A DNA stretch of 64,000 nt from Phycisphaerales bacterium (GTDB taxonomy: Bacteria > Planctomycetota > Phycisphaerae > Phycisphaerales > UBA1924): the NCBI GenBank assembly GCA_029260495.1, contig JAJDDD010000006.1, positions 124,001 to 188,000 of the forward strand, written 5' to 3'. A program made the position numbers and the translations under genes. Below the pieces are notes generated by a model that saw only the letters and a program-made list of their open reading frames with translations, was not told where the DNA came from and made no database searches. Each line of letters starts with the position of its first letter. The stretch's first letter is position 1. Below are positions 9,668 through 19,381 of this stretch, one piece after another.

Positions 9668-10042
9668 TCAGCCGGCGATGTGAACGATGATCGCCGCAGG
9701 GCTCGCAGCCCGAACCGTGTGGACAACCTTCGGCTCCATTCGAACGAGGTTGCCCGTAACGAGATCAAAATTTCGATCATCAGCGGTCACCTCCACCCGG
9801 CCTTGCAGGCAATGGATGGTCACCACGGCATTTGCGGCATGGGCAGGCAGCGCCGCCCTATCACGGAAGGCAAACATCGCAATCGTTACCGACTCGTGTC
9901 GGTACAGGGTGCGCTGAGCACGTCCGTTCTCTCTGGTGTTTGCGACATCGATCAGTTCCCTCGTGATCTCATCGAGACACACGAGTGCCGCCGTACCCTC
10001 GAACCGCTCGTGCGGCTTGTCTGGCTGCGTCTCGTGGCTCAT
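9668..10042 (-). CDS. cupin-domain protein
   Basis: 124 residues. The middle (SVTIAMFAFRDRAALPAHAANAVVTIHCLQGRVEVT) and the end (LVTGNLVRMEPKVVHTVRA) fit the two cupin motifs of a single small beta-barrel; the usual His ligands are only partly kept. The start overlaps the stop of the Rrf2 gene by 4 nt, so the two are co-translated. Small cupins often ride with redox or NO regulators, where they may bind a metal or small molecule; the function here is unknown. Confidence 0.75.
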   Translation of the reverse strand: MSHETQPDKPHERFEGTAALVCLDEITRELIDVANTRENGRAQRTLYRHESVTIAMFAFRDRAALPAHAANAVVTIHCLQGRVEVTADDRNFDLVTGNLVRMEPKVVHTVRAASPAAIIVHIAG

Positions 10043-10494
10043 GCGGTTCTCCCGTCAGCACGATCGGGGAGGACGACGATCCGCGTTAGCTTCGCCTCCT
10101 GTCGATCGATTAGGTCAAGCAATGTCACCCGATCGAGCGTGGAGATGAATGCCGTTCGGGCTTCTCGCACGACGCTCGACAACCTACACGACCCATCGAA
10201 GGGGCAGTCGCCCTCCGCTCGAAAACACTCGACGATATTCAGGTCCGGCTCAATGGCTCGGACAACATCGCCAACGCGCAATTGGTCGAGCTCGACCGCC
10301 AGCTGAACCCCACCGCCCCGCCCCGGAGTGGTAGCTACCCACCCAAGCCTCTGAAGCTGTTGCACTGCCTTTGTCAGGTGATTCGCCGAGACTCTGAATG
10401 CTTCAGCCATCTCACGCACTGTGTAACGCCTCTGGCTTGCGGCCAGGAACATCAGCACACGCAGGGCATAGTCGGTCCGATCGGTTAATCGCAT
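10039..10494 (-). CDS. Rrf2-family repressor, NsrR-like
   Basis: 151 residues from the ATG at 10494 (MRLTDRTDYALRVLMFLA); the longer frame upstream is not typical of the family. A winged helix (YTVREMAEAFRVSANHLTKAVQQL, GRGGGVQLA) is followed by three Cys in ECFRAEGDCPFDGSC, spaced C-x6-C-x5-C. That is the pattern of the [Fe-S] cluster ligands in NsrR and IscR-type regulators. NsrR senses nitric oxide through its cluster and represses NO-defence genes. The divergent hemoglobin gene and the palindrome between them support that role. IscR-like sensing is the alternative. Confidence 0.85.
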   Translation of the reverse strand: MRLTDRTDYALRVLMFLAASQRRYTVREMAEAFRVSANHLTKAVQQLQRLGWVATTPGRGGGVQLAVELDQLRVGDVVRAIEPDLNIVECFRAEGDCPFDGSCRLSSVVREARTAFISTLDRVTLLDLIDRQEAKLTRIVVLPDRADGRTA

Positions 10495-10517
10495 GCTTGT
10501 CACCTCGCTCACACGGA

Positions 10518-10542
10518 TATATGGTATTGTAAATACCAGATA
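10518..10542. promoter_or_regulatory. palindromic operator, probable Rrf2/NsrR site
   Basis: TGGTATT-GTA-AATACCA (10522-10538) is a perfect inverted repeat with a 3-nt centre, extended by TAT/ATA outside a single mismatch. It lies in the 58-bp gap between the divergent repressor and hemoglobin genes. Its size and AT-rich arms resemble known NsrR operators. It would cover the hemoglobin promoter and sits 23-24 nt from the repressor start, consistent with autoregulation. Confidence 0.7.
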
Positions 10543-10552
10543 GGAGCAAGCT

Positions 10553-10975
10553 ATGCCAGAGACTAATCTGCCCCTCACCGGACCCGCCGACACCGATAGG
10601 CCGTTCGACCACGAGCGGGAGATCGCGCACCTGGTAGAGCGTTTCTACACTGTCGCTCGACGTGATCCCCTGTTAGGGCCGGTCTTCGAGCGGCATGTCA
10701 CTGACTGGGACTGGCACCTGCGCACGATGAACGACTTTTGGTCGGCGGCAATCTACCGCACCGGCAGATACTCCGGCCGTCCTCTTGAAGTGCATCGGAT
10801 GATCGCAGGCATGAGTGCGGAGCACTTCTCAAGATGGCTTTTCCTGTGGAAGCAGACGGTCGACGAGGTTGTGCGCTCCGACGCGCGCGAGCCGCTCAAA
10901 TCGTTCGCCGGTCGGATGGCCGAAACCATGTCATGCAGGATGGGCTTGGGGAGCCCCCTTGGGATCGACGCGTGA
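10553..10975 (+). CDS. group III truncated hemoglobin
   Basis: 140 residues. The order of landmarks fits group III (P-type) truncated globins: a FYTVARRDPLLGPVF helix, DWDWHLRTMNDFWSAAIYRTGRYSG, then PLEVHRMIAGMSAEHFSRWLFLWKQTV. The proximal heme His is expected in the VHRMI/EHFSRW region. Such globins bind O2 or NO and several are controlled by NsrR. AGGAG lies 6 nt before the ATG. It is divergent from the Rrf2-cupin pair across a palindromic operator, which suggests NO detoxification or sensing. Confidence 0.88.
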   Translation: MPETNLPLTGPADTDRPFDHEREIAHLVERFYTVARRDPLLGPVFERHVTDWDWHLRTMNDFWSAAIYRTGRYSGRPLEVHRMIAGMSAEHFSRWLFLWKQTVDEVVRSDAREPLKSFAGRMAETMSCRMGLGSPLGIDA

Positions 10976-11312: not shown

Positions 11313-12905
11313 CTACTTTTTTGCCGAGAAGGTATCAGGACGGGCGGCGTTCCATTCTCGTCGCCACAAGTCGGGATGATCACCATCATCGACGAGTGTG
11401 TGAGGCTCAAGAAACTCAAAGATCTCTGCGAAGGTCCTGATCTTGGAATCACTGACACGGCGAAACACCAGGTCGGGCGTGATCTGCTCGGGACTCGGAA
11501 CTCCCATCGCATGCATGATTTCCAGAAAACTCGCAATCGTTGCTTTGTGGAAGCGAGCAATACGTTCCGCCTTGTCTGGAACAACAAGGCCCTTGTACAG
11601 CGCGGGGTTCTGAGTAGCCACGCCGGTTGGACAGGTGTTGTTGTTGCAACGCAGCGCTTGAATACACCCAAGCGCCAGCATCATTCCGCGAGCAGAATTG
11701 CAAGCATCTGCACCGAGGGCCATCGCCCGCACCATGTGAAATCCGGTGAGGATTTTGCCGCTGGCGATGATCCGAACCCGTTCGCGTAGTCCACATCCAA
11801 CAAGGGCGTTGTGCGCGAACGCCCATGCATCCCGAGCGGGCATCCCGATTGAGTTGCTGAACTCAAGTGGTGCTGCTCCAGTCCCGCCCTCACCTCCGTC
11901 GATGGTGATGAAGTCGGGGGTGATTCCGGTCTCAAGCATCGCCTTGCACATCGCGAGCAGTTCAATCCTGCGCCCCACACACAGCTTCACACCCACGGGT
12001 TTGCCGCCGGACAGCTCGCGGAGCCTCGCGATGAACTCCATCATCTCGATCGGCGTCCGAAACGCCGAATGTCTCGAGGGAGAAACAACTGTTTTGCCGG
12101 CGGGCACGTGCCGGATGCTCGCAATTTCGGCTGTTACTTTTGAGCCGGGAAGCACGCCGCCGTGTCCGGGCTTGGCTCCCTGGCTGAGCTTGATCTCGAT
12201 CATGCGGACTGACTCGCGCCGGGCGTTGTCGGCAAACAAATCACCGTTGAACAGCCCCTCGTGTGTACGACAGCCAAAGTAGCCGGTGCCGATCTGCCAG
12301 ACCAGATCGCCGCCCGCCTCAAGGTGATAGGGCGAGATGCCACCCTCGCCAGTGTTGTGGGCGAACTCACCTTTTTTCGCCCCGCCGTTGAGTGCACGTA
12401 TCGCCGTGGGTGAAAGAGCGCCGAAGCTCATCGCGCTGATATTGAGTCGCGATAGTGAGTACGGCTTTGCACAGTCGGTTTCGCCGACGATCAGTCGTGG
12501 CTCATTTTCTAAATGTTCCACGTCTTCGAGTGCATGTGCGGCCCATTCGTATCCCACGTCGTACACGTTGCGCTGAGTGCCGAAGGGCTGCGTCTCGCGT
12601 TCACCCTTTGCCCGTTGATACACGACACTTCGCATCTCACGCTCGATCGGGAATGCGTCAGTGTTCAGTTCGATGAAGTACTGCTGGAGCTCAGGCCGCA
12701 CCGCCTCGAAGAGATAGCGGAGATGCCCAATCAACGGAAAGTTTCGGCGAATCGTGCTTCGTGTCTGCAGGGTATCGCAGAGCCCAATCGCAACGAGCGG
12801 ACCGATCAGCAGAAACGCAAAAAGAGCAGGGGGCCAGATTGCCGACGCGAATATGATTATCGCGATGATCCCGAGACTCACACCATAAAACCAGCGTCGC
12901 ACCAT
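11313..12905 (-). CDS. FMN-binding glutamate-synthase-family protein (membrane-anchored)
   Basis: 530 residues. Two hydrophobic segments at residues about 5-45 suggest membrane anchoring. The rest is the GltB FMN barrel: LSRLNISAMSFGALSPTAI, NTGEGGISPYH, KPGHGGVLPG, TIDGGEGGTGAAP and IIASGKILTG. The Fe-S ligand loop RCNNNTCPTGVATQ is intact. The glutaminase domain of true GltB is absent, so this is a stand-alone synthase-domain paralogue whose electron partner and substrate are unknown. It lies in the accessory region, upstream of a broken marC. Confidence 0.9.
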   Translation of the reverse strand: MVRRWFYGVSLGIIAIIIFASAIWPPALFAFLLIGPLVAIGLCDTLQTRSTIRRNFPLIGHLRYLFEAVRPELQQYFIELNTDAFPIEREMRSVVYQRAKGERETQPFGTQRNVYDVGYEWAAHALEDVEHLENEPRLIVGETDCAKPYSLSRLNISAMSFGALSPTAIRALNGGAKKGEFAHNTGEGGISPYHLEAGGDLVWQIGTGYFGCRTHEGLFNGDLFADNARRESVRMIEIKLSQGAKPGHGGVLPGSKVTAEIASIRHVPAGKTVVSPSRHSAFRTPIEMMEFIARLRELSGGKPVGVKLCVGRRIELLAMCKAMLETGITPDFITIDGGEGGTGAAPLEFSNSIGMPARDAWAFAHNALVGCGLRERVRIIASGKILTGFHMVRAMALGADACNSARGMMLALGCIQALRCNNNTCPTGVATQNPALYKGLVVPDKAERIARFHKATIASFLEIMHAMGVPSPEQITPDLVFRRVSDSKIRTFAEIFEFLEPHTLVDDGDHPDLWRREWNAARPDTFSAKK

Positions 12906-14890: not shown

Positions 14891-15793
14891 TCAATCGACA
14901 ATCTGCACACCTTCGATTCGCGTTGTTTCCTCAAAGAGCTCCGCAATTCGCAATGTCATCGGTCCAACAGCGCCATCGTTGATCACCTGTTCATCGATGC
15001 GAACAACTGGTGCGATTTCACCCATTGTTCCAGTGCAAAAGACTTCTCTGGCTGCGCTCACCTCCTTGGGAGTGATGTTTCGAATCGTGCACGAGATATT
15101 GTTTGACTTGCACAACTCCAGGACGACACTCCGAGTGATACCCTCGGGGCATGCCGTCGTGGTGGGTGTCGCCAGCCCGCCGTCAAATACAAAGAAAAGA
15201 TGTGTTGCGTTCGTCTCCGCAATGTAGCCGCGAGTGTCAAGCAGCATGGCGTCGTCGGCGCCGCGTTGGTTGGCCTCCATCTTGGCGAGTATTGAAGTGA
15301 GCTGGTTGCAGCTGTGGATAGTCTGATCAAGCACGTTTGCAGGAGGACGCTTCAAAGAGCTCGTAATGAGTGAAAGGCCGGCTTTGTCATAGACAGGCGG
15401 CTTGTGCTCAGCCAGGATGATGAGCGTCGTGCCATTCGTGTTTACGCGCGGATCGAGCCCGCTGGTGTACTTGACGCCGCGCGACAAGGTGAGTCGGATA
15501 TGCACACCATCGCGCATACCGTTCGCTTCGAGTGTTCGTTTGATCTCCTTTGTGATGTCATCATCGCTCGGAATGCCTTGATAGTGCAGCCGCTCTGCGC
15601 CTTTCCGAAGCCGGGCGAGATGCTCGCGCAGTCGAAAAATGCTTCCGTCGTACAGTCGAAGTCCTTCCCAGACCGCGTCGCCATTTTGCACGGATGAATC
15701 AAATGGGCTTACACCGGCCGCATCGCGATGCACAAGTGCGCCGGCGACATTCACCAGGATGTTCTTATTCGCTTCGTGATACTGCTGAAGCAT
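14891..15793 (-). CDS. class IV aminotransferase-like protein with His at the PLP-lysine position
   Basis: 300 residues, aligned over its full length with branched-chain/D-amino-acid aminotransferases (fold type IV): DAVWEGLRLYDGSIFRLREH, VHIRLTLSRG, then ILAKMEANQRGADDAMLLD, GYIAETNATHLFFV (the pyridine-binding Glu) and the phosphate loop TGTMGEIAPVV. In the family the Schiff-base Lys sits in a K-S-L-N or K-H-L-N motif just before the ILAK helix. Here the motif is I-H-S-C-N, with His160 (codon CAC at 15314-15316). Normal transamination is thus doubtful. The sulfotransferase-like gene lies just upstream on the same strand. Regulation is not visible. Confidence 0.88.
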   Translation of the reverse strand: MLQQYHEANKNILVNVAGALVHRDAAGVSPFDSSVQNGDAVWEGLRLYDGSIFRLREHLARLRKGAERLHYQGIPSDDDITKEIKRTLEANGMRDGVHIRLTLSRGVKYTSGLDPRVNTNGTTLIILAEHKPPVYDKAGLSLITSSLKRPPANVLDQTIHSCNQLTSILAKMEANQRGADDAMLLDTRGYIAETNATHLFFVFDGGLATPTTTACPEGITRSVVLELCKSNNISCTIRNITPKEVSAAREVFCTGTMGEIAPVVRIDEQVINDGAVGPMTLRIAELFEETTRIEGVQIVD

Positions 15794-15875: not shown

Positions 15876-16628
15876 CTATGCGTCGCTTTGCAATCTTCGT
15901 TCATACAGCGAGTAATAAAGCGCCTCGCATTCCTGCAATACGCCCTGCAACCGTTTCGGCGGGGTCTCGGTCTTGGGGCGGGGGGGCATGAATCCGGTTG
16001 ATCTCTCGACGTTCGCATACCAATGCTTCGCCCACACACCGTCGGTCTCGCGCGGGCCAGCTCGCCAATGGAGCATCCTATCTGTATACGGCACGTTCAC
16101 GGCTTTACACAGCGCCCTGAGCATCCCCGCGGGGTCGCGCAGCACGTCGGCTGTATCAATAATGATTGGCGATTCACCCACCAAATTCTCGATAATTGGG
16201 ATCAACCGTGCTTGTTGAGGCAGCCCCGTCTCATTCGCTGTCGGATTGGCGATTACTTTTGCAAGCGATGTAATCATCTCTCGCGGGTCGCGAATCAGCA
16301 GGCAATTTGTCAGGTCCGCGAGCCAGTCCGTTCGCAAGCTCGGAAGGATGTGATGCGCCATATGCTTTTGATATGAAACTCGCTTACCGCCGGCCGGCTC
16401 CTCAAGCAATGACATGATAATTTTTTGTGGGTCCGTCTCATGACACCGGATCACCTCATCCGCGCCTGGGTGCGGCAAGTCGTTTTGTTTCAAATAAAAC
16501 GCGTAGAACGGTTCGTCGATGACGGCGGTGTCGCCCCTGGCTTCCCAGGAGCGCATCATCGCCGTGGAGATATTACGCGGCCCGGACCACATGGCAACCC
16601 GCCGAATCTCGTTGGTTTGGCTATTCAC
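15876..16628 (-). CDS. sulfotransferase-like P-loop protein
   Basis: 250 residues from a GTG at 16628 with AAGGA just upstream; longer frames overlap the neighbouring dockerin gene. VAMWSGPRNISTAMMRSWE near the N-terminus corresponds to the PAPS 5'-phosphate loop of sulfotransferases, and CLLIRDPREMITSLAKV to the 3'-phosphate-binding region with its R-D-P motif. The end (HWYANVERSTGF, then a helix) fits the same family. It precedes the class IV aminotransferase-like gene by 82 nt. From memory, plants have the same two parts fused as branched-chain-aminotransferase-like proteins. The acceptor is unknown. Confidence 0.75.
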   Translation of the reverse strand: MNSQTNEIRRVAMWSGPRNISTAMMRSWEARGDTAVIDEPFYAFYLKQNDLPHPGADEVIRCHETDPQKIIMSLLEEPAGGKRVSYQKHMAHHILPSLRTDWLADLTNCLLIRDPREMITSLAKVIANPTANETGLPQQARLIPIIENLVGESPIIIDTADVLRDPAGMLRALCKAVNVPYTDRMLHWRAGPRETDGVWAKHWYANVERSTGFMPPRPKTETPPKRLQGVLQECEALYYSLYERRLQSDA

Positions 16629-16644: not shown

Positions 16645-17346
16645 TTAGGAACACGCGCCCCAGCTTCCAAGAATCTGTGCGAGATCAGATGAACCGACGC
16701 CGTTTCCATCGAAGTCCGCCGGCACGCCGGCCTGGCCCCAGGAGCCAAGCAGCGCCGCTAAATCGGCGCTCCCTACAAGGCCGTCTCCATTAAGATCCCT
16801 CGGGCAAGGGGACGCGAAGTTGATGGAGATGCTCACTCCATCGAGTGCGCCGACATCGTAGAGCGCGCCGTCAGCCACAAATACCTCCCATGACCCGTTC
16901 GGATCCTGACCGTTGAACACGGACAGGGCCGTCGCTGGAAGGACATCGCCGCTCACCGTTGGCACGGCGGTCGCTGAGCATTGGCCTTCCGGGCCTGCCA
17001 CCGCTTCGTCAGTGAATGTGGCGTCGATATTGTCGCCGCCACAACCGAATGGGAAGGCGCCAATAGCGAGGCGATCAATGAGCGTTGCTTCCAGACCTTC
17101 ATGACGAATCATCACCACCACGTCCCCTATCCATGGATGTGAGATCTCAAGATCGACCGCCACGCTGTCAATGACAGAGCCAACAGGCGCCGTCGCCTGA
17201 AGCGTGACAAGCGGAGGAGGCGCCACATCATTGTCAGCGATCGGGTGATTCACGCTGTCGGAGACTGTGATGACGTCTGCGCGGGCCTGCAGGATGAACA
17301 AGAAGAACACAGCCAAGAGCACGATGGTTTTTGGGATCTGCTTCAT
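16645..17346 (-). CDS. secreted P-domain-like protein with GC-type dockerin tail
   Basis: 233 residues from the ATG at 17346, supported by GGAGG 9 nt upstream. A signal peptide (TIVLLAVFFLFILQARA) is followed by a jelly-roll domain (DLEISHPWIGDVVVMIRHEG, DPNGSWEVFVAD) that resembles proprotein-convertase P domains and related planctomycete adhesion modules. The tail is Cys-bracketed (CPRDLNGDG to GACS) with two dockerin repeats; the second repeat (DFDGNGVGSSDL) is one residue short. It follows the lipase-like gene by 19 nt on the same strand and is probably co-transcribed with it. Confidence 0.82.
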   Translation of the reverse strand: MKQIPKTIVLLAVFFLFILQARADVITVSDSVNHPIADNDVAPPPLVTLQATAPVGSVIDSVAVDLEISHPWIGDVVVMIRHEGLEATLIDRLAIGAFPFGCGGDNIDATFTDEAVAGPEGQCSATAVPTVSGDVLPATALSVFNGQDPNGSWEVFVADGALYDVGALDGVSISINFASPCPRDLNGDGLVGSADLAALLGSWGQAGVPADFDGNGVGSSDLAQILGSWGACS

Positions 17347-17365
17347 GAATCGTTGCCTCCTGCGA

Positions 17366-19381
17366 TTACCTTGCAGCATTCGCGTTCATGTCCATGTTCC
17401 GACTTACATCCGTGTACTGAGCAGGATCGCGCATGCCCGTCGTATGACACTGGCCCTCTGTGTGCCCCATATTGTTGGCGCCCGGAAGCTGTCCGCGGAA
17501 CATCTCAATCACGCCATCATCAGGATCGGTGAGAAGGAAATCAGTCACCAGGTTGCAAAAATCAAAGCCGAAGTCGTCCAGAAACGAAGTCGTCCAGTAG
17601 TGCACCTGTCCCCGCGCAGCTGATGGAATGCCAGCGAGCCAAAGGGCGGCGCCTTCTGGCGTGAGATCAAAGTTTGTTCCACACCCAGCGCCAAAGATCT
17701 GCCCCAGGAACGCAATGTCGCTTGCAAGCGGAGTGCCCTGGTACGGCGTTCCCACGGACTGAATCAAACGCGGCCCGGTTGCCCAATCCAGGCCGCTCCA
17801 ATAGAAGGTGTAAAGGTGAAGCGCAGCGGCGCCGCCCTGGCTGTGCGCCACAACGCCGAATGATTTTGATTGATTGCCCAGCGCGACGAGCAACTGGGCA
17901 AACTCATCATAACTGCGACTCTCTCCCGGATCCTGAAACAGTTCGATAAAGCCGTTGAAGTCCTGCGCCGGCCATAGAGGGAACTGCGAACAGTACCCAT
18001 GGATGAGCATCAGATTGTGGGCGCAAGTGGCCCGCTGGGCGCTGCGTTCGGTGTTGTTCGGCCAAATCGGAAGCGATCGTCCTCGGTCATAGCGCCCATG
18101 ACGCATCACATCGTCGATCAATACATCCCGAGGCGTACGACTGAGATCGAGGCCGTCAACCCGCATTGACATCGCCGCGCGTTGAGCAATCGGTATATGA
18201 GTTTTTGGATCCTGTACGCGGATGTTGCGCAGTTCAAGTGGCGCCGACGCCCCAGCCCGAGTGATCCATCGCTTGTCCAGGCGAAGTGAAGCCGTACAGG
18301 CTTTGGCGTCTGGATCATTCCCGACCATGCCGCTAATCCAGCAAATAGGCAGTGCATTCCCCTGAGCATCGCGCCCCCACACTTCCGCAGAGACCTGCAG
18401 CCTGTCCGTCCAGCTGACGCCAAGAACCGGGATGTCAACGCGCACCGCTTCGATGCTCCGGTCGACAGCGATAGCCGAGCGTCCCAGCTCCGCGCCGCCG
18501 GGAGCCACGGTGACCAAGTGCTGACTTGTTCGCAAGACGCGACGCCCGTTGGGCGTGACGCCCTCGACAACGATTTGAGCAACGTACTCACCAGCGCTGT
18601 CGACTCGAATCGACCCCGTAAACTTCGAATCACCCCGATGATCATCCTCGCCGGCGCCGTCGTCAGCCATCGGCGTTACGATTTCCTGACCATTCGGCAG
18701 TCGCAGCCGCAGCTCCGCCTTCGACACCGCCCCAGGAATCGGATCGGGCGTATCCCCCCGTTGTGCGCGAGGCACGTCCTCACACAGATAGGTGATGAAC
18801 GCAAGCTGCCGCCCTGCAATCAAATCCAATGACTTCACGTGGGTGTACGCATTGCAGGGCGCGCCATCAGCGATGAGAAGATGGTCTTGGTCAGTAGCAT
18901 TGGCGCCATCTGACGCCTCAATTTGAAGCTTCCATGCTCCGTCTAGATGTCCCCGAATGGTGTACAAAACGCCCTCTGCGTCGGCGGTTCGTGTCATTCC
19001 CGATAACGGCGCAGTGTCTTGCGATGAGAGCTTGCCGCCGTCAGGCGTGGTCATCACAAGTTTCCATTGCTCAGCATCTGGCCCCAGCAGCATCAGCCGG
19101 AGATCGCTGGCATCCCCGATCGGGACGACCACTTCCCATGTTCGCCGCCCATCGACGCCGTCGACAAAGTCGATCGGGAGGAGGGCGGAGTCTGACTCTC
19201 TTCCAGTAGTCTCGGGCCTCGGCAGGCGCAACATGCCGGAGAGAAAATCCTCCGGCGGAGCCGCGATCTGTTTCGGCGTCAACCAGTCTGTCGGCACAGG
19301 CGGATCGGCATGCGCAACGCCTTGGACCAGAAGCGCCGCAACGACACCCGCTAACACACACCTGCAGCAGAGTGGTCTCAT
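17366..19381 (-). CDS. secreted alpha/beta-hydrolase (lipase-like) with N-terminal beta-rich region
   Basis: 671 residues from the ATG at 19381 (GGAGG 10 nt upstream), opening with a signal peptide (CVLAGVVAALLVQGVAHA). Residues about 60-330 are beta-rich; DDGAGEDDHRGDSKFTGSI fits the choice-of-anchor X pattern, and the following segments look immunoglobulin-like. Residues about 465-670 form an alpha/beta-hydrolase: NLMLIHGYCSQFPLW (oxyanion region), FGVVAHSQGGAAALH (nucleophile Ser) and QSVGTPYQGTPLASD. The Asp and His of the triad are not assigned with certainty. It probably acts on an ester outside the cytoplasm. It is upstream of, and likely in operon with, the dockerin gene. Confidence 0.8.
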   Translation of the reverse strand: MRPLCCRCVLAGVVAALLVQGVAHADPPVPTDWLTPKQIAAPPEDFLSGMLRLPRPETTGRESDSALLPIDFVDGVDGRRTWEVVVPIGDASDLRLMLLGPDAEQWKLVMTTPDGGKLSSQDTAPLSGMTRTADAEGVLYTIRGHLDGAWKLQIEASDGANATDQDHLLIADGAPCNAYTHVKSLDLIAGRQLAFITYLCEDVPRAQRGDTPDPIPGAVSKAELRLRLPNGQEIVTPMADDGAGEDDHRGDSKFTGSIRVDSAGEYVAQIVVEGVTPNGRRVLRTSQHLVTVAPGGAELGRSAIAVDRSIEAVRVDIPVLGVSWTDRLQVSAEVWGRDAQGNALPICWISGMVGNDPDAKACTASLRLDKRWITRAGASAPLELRNIRVQDPKTHIPIAQRAAMSMRVDGLDLSRTPRDVLIDDVMRHGRYDRGRSLPIWPNNTERSAQRATCAHNLMLIHGYCSQFPLWPAQDFNGFIELFQDPGESRSYDEFAQLLVALGNQSKSFGVVAHSQGGAAALHLYTFYWSGLDWATGPRLIQSVGTPYQGTPLASDIAFLGQIFGAGCGTNFDLTPEGAALWLAGIPSAARGQVHYWTTSFLDDFGFDFCNLVTDFLLTDPDDGVIEMFRGQLPGANNMGHTEGQCHTTGMRDPAQYTDVSRNMDMNANAAR

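Follow-up and report, generated by a model that had tools for sequence, protein, structure and literature searches.

A lysine-less branch of fold type IV aminotransferase-like proteins is tied to a Sulfotransfer_5 sulfotransferase in bacteria

What does a transaminase-like protein do when histidine stands at the position of its PLP-binding lysine? PLP enzymes are recognised by their Schiff-base lysine, and few conserved families lack it. The question is raised by a gene at 14891..15793 (minus strand) of the window, by which we mean the whole stretch of 64,000 nucleotides from a Phycisphaerales bacterium that was analysed here. This intact ORF has an ATG start and encodes a protein of 300 amino acids (P0001). 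Gene order, co-occurrence, and fusion tie the lysine-less branch of fold type IV to which P0001 belongs to sulfotransferases of the Sulfotransfer_5 family.

P0001 matched the Pfam family Aminotran_4 (PF01063) with an E-value of 5e-49 (167.6 bits against a cut-off of 28.5). Its AF2 model (pLDDT 87) superimposes on 5e25, 5mqz, and 7z79 with TM-scores of about 0.9, and the TM of about 0.9 between the model and branched-chain aminotransferases (BCATs) places the protein in fold type IV. The closest solved structures include 7z79, an "aminotransferase-like protein" of Variovorax paradoxus, together with its N174K variant (9j32). Among the NCBIfam transaminase models (BCAT, DAAT, and PabC equivalogs), 20 families matched P0001 and none scored above its own cut-off (230.5 vs. 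363 bits at best). The top-scoring models carry the names of branched-chain aminotransferases, so that pathway predictions drawn from such a name would probably be wrong.

The alignment with E. coli IlvE (L160) and Lys-type paralogues, which included the IlvE-like gene of the source genome itself, placed His160 (codon CAC; 15314..15316, minus strand) in the column of the IlvE Schiff-base Lys159. The preliminary description had claimed a fold type IV protein with histidine at this position and had suggested the comparison with IlvE; both the fold and the histidine were recovered. Residue 160 is His in 147/147 homologues of this type, Asn in 27/27 members of a sister family, and Lys in 13/13 Lys-type rows; the IlvE-like paralogue of the source genome (L002) has a normal lysine (IKSLN). 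The cofactor residues described for E. coli BCAT (E193, R59, I220, T221, and T257; PMC8320979) correspond to E193, R61, I219, T220, and T256 of P0001. Position 219 is I or V among the 147 His-type homologues, and the others are invariant (147/147): the pyridine-nitrogen ligand Glu193 (15215..15217), which is Thr or Ser in 27/27 Asn-type proteins, and the phosphate ligands Arg61 (15611..15613; IlvE Arg59, with its role taken from PMC8320979), Thr220 (15134..15136; IlvE Thr221), and Thr256 (15026..15028; IlvE Thr257), all on the minus strand. The earlier statement that every landmark is readable was slightly overstated, since Tyr164, which contacts the PLP phenyl ring, is lost (Gln in P0001, mostly Leu and also Met in relatives) and Phe36 is replaced by Trp42.

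Residues common to the His and Asn types and absent from Lys types include W42, H98, K108, E129, N195, and C215, with H98 occupying the place of Tyr95 in IlvE. Lys108 (15470..15472, minus strand) lies in the O-pocket loop, as defined in PMC8320979, which reaches the active site of the neighbouring subunit; its column is K in 147/147 His-type proteins, K or R in 27/27 of the Asn type, and G in 13/13 Lys-type rows. By eye, it falls two to three residues ahead of the Arg that binds the carboxylate in D-amino-acid and (R)-amine transaminases, and a role in anion recognition is the reading that we prefer for it. Lys131 (15401..15403, minus strand), beside the IlvE Trp126 column, is likewise K in 147/147 His-type proteins and is Ser in 13/27 Asn-type proteins. 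Neither lysine is the consensus among Lys-type rows, and both are plausible candidates for alternative Schiff-base donors.

Scanning GTDB genomes returned 80 close homologues (59–71% identity), and together with the window copy 81/81 carried His. Our final alignment held 147 His-type homologues, about 47–71% identical, from Planctomycetota, Chloroflexota, Actinomycetota, Gemmatimonadota, and Gammaproteobacteria. As His was found in 81/81 and 147/147 homologues, His160 is due neither to chance nor to an assembly error, and the 147 conserved homologues also rule out a pseudogene. To judge from this alignment, the lysine-less site is under purifying selection, in agreement with the earlier suggestion of a conserved change and not a decay. 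The His type was present in 39/294 Planctomycetota genomes, in 17/41 relatives of the window genome, and in 5/246 Actinomycetota, where two further matches were of the Asn type; in the Pseudomonadota and Chloroflexota samples it was confined to the seed genomes. The His-type protein is therefore a patchy, optional trait. A search of viral contigs found no relative.

The next gene upstream of P0001 (about 15876..16628, minus strand) encodes a sulfotransferase of the Sulfotransfer_5 family (PF19798; E 7.5e-52; 176.4 bits against a cut-off of 23.2). Its listed ORF reaches 16748, and as the first 44 residues of this ORF are predicted to be disordered, a GTG start at 16628 seems probable. A gene at 16645-17379, whose product looks secreted and carries a dockerin-like repeat (DLNGDGLVGSADLAALLGSWG) at its C terminus, overlaps this over-long listed ORF with its 3' end. 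The sulfotransferase carries both elements expected of a PAPS-dependent enzyme, on the minus strand: a 5'-phosphosulfate-binding motif, W54-SGPRNISTA-63 (16560..16589), with W54, P57, R58, S61, T62, and A63 invariant in 35 sequences, and the 3'-phosphate-binding R153...S161 (R-x7-S of PAPS sulfotransferases; 16266..16292), in which both residues are invariant in the same number of sequences. An APS kinase is encoded by the source genome (E 3.7e-72), and hence PAPS should be available. The sole sequence relatives in the PDB were the CurM (4gbm) and olefin-synthase (4gox) sulfotransferases (E 9e-8 and 7e-7, respectively), of which the CurM match is weak and spans only part of the domain. Foldseek also returned tyrosylprotein sulfotransferases, with modest TM-scores.

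The partnership between the two proteins is well supported; together with the fusions and the Asn-type sister family, it goes beyond what the preliminary description noted. A sulfotransferase was encoded in the fetched flank of about 67–68 of the 81 close homologues (window copy included), mostly directly upstream. Across 294 evenly sampled Planctomycetota genomes (E <= 1e-60 for the His protein and E <= 1e-25 for the sulfotransferase), the His protein was detected in 39, the sulfotransferase in 41, both in 39, and neither in 253 (Fisher p about 1e-46, which is only indicative given that the genomes are related). One of the two sulfotransferase-only genomes (G117) has a His gene (67% identity) that runs off the end of its contig, and in the other (G052) an Asn-type gene adjoins the sulfotransferase. 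The genes lie within 500 bp of each other in 28 of the 39 genomes with both and on different contigs in 7. Among further His-type genomes without adjacency, the sulfotransferase was found elsewhere in 11/11. In two genomes (G293 and G268) the proteins are fused in frame, with the sulfotransferase first and a length of roughly 540 aa (L108 and L109). Pairwise distances among His-type proteins and among their sulfotransferases were correlated (r 0.70; 0/2000 permutations), and within one genus (g2) the presence or absence of both genes changes together. The exception is G220, in which a divergent His protein (L134/L213; 37%) occurs in a genome with no sulfotransferase match. In this fold IV protein (L213, 1222-2121), His takes the place of the Lys (RSHDNNQ), the Glu is kept, and the phosphate Arg has apparently changed to Lys.

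The same partner recurs in the sister family, in which Asn occupies the lysine position, Ser or Thr the pyridine-Glu position, and Lys or Arg the Tyr164 position. The Asn type was found in 24/299 Pseudomonadota genomes (leaving the His protein of the seed genome out of the count). A Sulfotransfer_5 gene lay within about 1.5 kb in 15 of these 24, mostly downstream, and 6 of the other 9 genomes have a sulfotransferase elsewhere (21/24 in total). Gene order in this family is mostly opposite to that in the His family. In our tree, the His and Asn types formed one clade (support 100/99) on a long stem with Lys types outside, and the Asn type formed its own clade (support 100/100). The simplest reading would be that the lysine was lost once, in a lineage that already had its tie to the sulfotransferase, and that two solutions then arose. 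The tree of the sulfotransferases splits imperfectly by type, with three changes, which indicates that some exchange of partners has occurred.

When the ORFs around 117 His-type and 14 Asn-type loci were clustered, the pair alone proved to be conserved, with no larger operon, and no pathway genes that would show the substrate were found to recur near the pair across phyla. Neighbours are specific to clades. In L040 and some 17 further loci, most of them from Anaerolineae, the pair is followed by a xanthine-dehydrogenase-type molybdopterin protein and often preceded by an amino-acid-binding periplasmic protein; an FGGY kinase, a Gfo/Idh protein, and an amino-acid permease lie nearby in some Phycisphaerae, and a prolyl oligopeptidase in Caldilineaceae. 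These neighbours agree on no pathway, and several of them hint at amino acids. At these loci, a larger operon that would reveal the substrate is ruled out, as only the pair is conserved and its clade-specific neighbours are discordant. Elsewhere in the window (9668-10975), a cupin protein and an Rrf2-family regulator (3.4e-33), both on the minus strand, adjoin an ORF on the plus strand that resembles a protein of the truncated-hemoglobin type and has no Pfam match; this is possibly a nitric-oxide-response cluster. The gene at 11313-12905 encodes a glutamate-synthase FMN domain as a stand-alone protein (PF01645; 1.4e-88) that has a hydrophobic segment at its N terminus.

We give about even credence to the reading that the pair is an undescribed two-part enzyme, in which the lysine-less domain would hold PLP or PMP non-covalently and His160 would act as acid/base. 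The chemistry and the substrate we infer to be as follows. With PAPS as the donor, the sulfotransferase would sulfonate a small substrate, probably amino- or keto-acid-like, on a hydroxyl (or amine), and the transaminase-like domain would handle the same substrate. The His-family domain would most likely bind PLP or PMP through Glu193 and the phosphate cup and go directly to an external aldimine or ketimine of the substrate, and His160 would replace lysine as the acid/base at C-alpha/C4'. Since the domain lacks a lysine on which the internal aldimine could re-form, a normal cycling transaminase would not be expected; lyase-like elimination or isomerisation would be favoured, with a sulfate ester, speculatively, as a possible leaving group. 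CurM and olefin-synthase sulfotransferases turn a hydroxyl into a sulfate leaving group for elimination. A doubtful extension, which would amount to a new enzyme logic, is that the PAPS sulfotransferase makes a sulfate ester on the hydroxyl of an amino or keto acid, and that sulfate is next eliminated or displaced by the lysine-free B6 domain with histidine as the base, in a two-gene or fused arrangement in several bacterial phyla and possibly plants. Our literature searches on the function of the Variovorax protein, the plant loci, Sulfotransfer_5 with aminotransferases, and PLP-dependent sulfate elimination found nothing direct.

The strict retention of His160, Glu193, and the phosphate cup (147/147) is consistent with a two-part B6 enzyme. 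Counting against it, the Asn family is linked to the sulfotransferase yet lacks the pyridine Glu, and B6 chemistry may therefore not be the shared function. It is accordingly possible, if somewhat unlikely, that the domain no longer uses vitamin B6 and now serves the sulfotransferase as a partner that binds substrate, regulates, or catalyses in some other way, with the phosphate cup holding a phosphate, a sulfate, or a PAP-like group. Such a change would fit a sister family that has lost both Lys and Glu and kept the same partner, and the non-IlvE residues that the His and Asn types have in common look as if they belonged to one remodelled site. However, complete conservation of Glu193 and the phosphate residues in the His family would be hard to explain without a pyridine ligand. 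The loss of Tyr164 also counts against the two-part B6 enzyme, as do K108 and K131, which could give an alternative Schiff base. We consider it improbable that the protein is an ordinary transaminase with its internal aldimine on K108 (of the neighbouring subunit) or K131. Both lysines are invariant in the His family and lie on pocket-lining segments, but these segments are on the substrate side, away from the Schiff-base column of all Lys-type homologues, and K131 gives way to Ser in part of the Asn family. We know of no fold type IV enzyme with an internal aldimine from the K108/K131 region.

Two further readings fare worse against the genomic data. Many loci are adjacent, and the two genes could have been inherited or transferred as one block while their proteins act separately. 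It is very improbable that the sulfotransferase link is such an inherited neighbourhood and nothing else, considering that co-occurrence persists when the genes lie on different contigs or far apart, that both come and go together within genus g2, that fusions exist, and that the separate Asn family retains the link with mostly opposite gene order. To a decayed transaminase or a pseudoenzyme drifting to loss, which the missing canonical lysine might suggest, we assign a negligible probability; it is already contradicted by homologues that remain about 47–71% identical, with dozens of invariant residues over five phyla and intact reading frames.

With a whole clade that has lost the lysine and kept a strict sulfotransferase partner, an orphan fold becomes a testable two-protein system. 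The solved but unexplained Variovorax structure gains a functional context, and if the putative plant fusion (see below) is confirmed, a function would be suggested for a conserved plant protein.

When compared with IlvE, PRK08320, and DAAT transaminases, P0001 has the same fold, phosphate cup, and pyridine Glu but differs in that it lacks the Schiff-base Lys and Tyr164, has His98 in place of Tyr95, and carries a Lys in the O-pocket loop. The Variovorax protein (7z79) also belongs to fold type IV and lacks the PLP lysine; it is 35% identical to P0001 (TM about 0.9) but has Asn and Ser where P0001 has His160 and Glu193, respectively. Both residues are those of the sister clade, in which a Sulfotransfer_5 gene is likewise found next door. 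Membership of P0001 in this Asn family is ruled out, as its clade is the sister one and has His160 and Glu193 in place of Asn and the lost Glu. ColD (GDP-4-keto-6-deoxymannose 3-dehydratase) also has His in place of the PLP lysine and might be a model of how His supports chemistry with free PMP, but it is a fold type I enzyme that acts on a sugar nucleotide, and P0001, being of fold type IV, is not a ColD-type PMP dehydratase by fold. We also know of no sulfotransferase partner of ColD. The CurM and olefin-synthase sulfotransferases (4gbm and 4gox) are the nearest solved sequence relatives of the partner; they differ from it as domains of polyketide synthases that act on carrier-bound chains, and only part of the domain aligns. 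As a lead only, the plant "branched-chain-amino-acid aminotransferase-like protein 1/2" presumably has about 555 aa, a sulfotransferase-like N-terminal half, and a His-type C-terminal half, which would match the domain order of the bacterial fusions. That such BCAT-like proteins exist in plants is on record in papers, and the preliminary description had likewise proposed a His at this position in them. An annotation related to these plant BCAT-like proteins is attached to a GreenCut2 gene of Chlamydomonas (PMC8448359).
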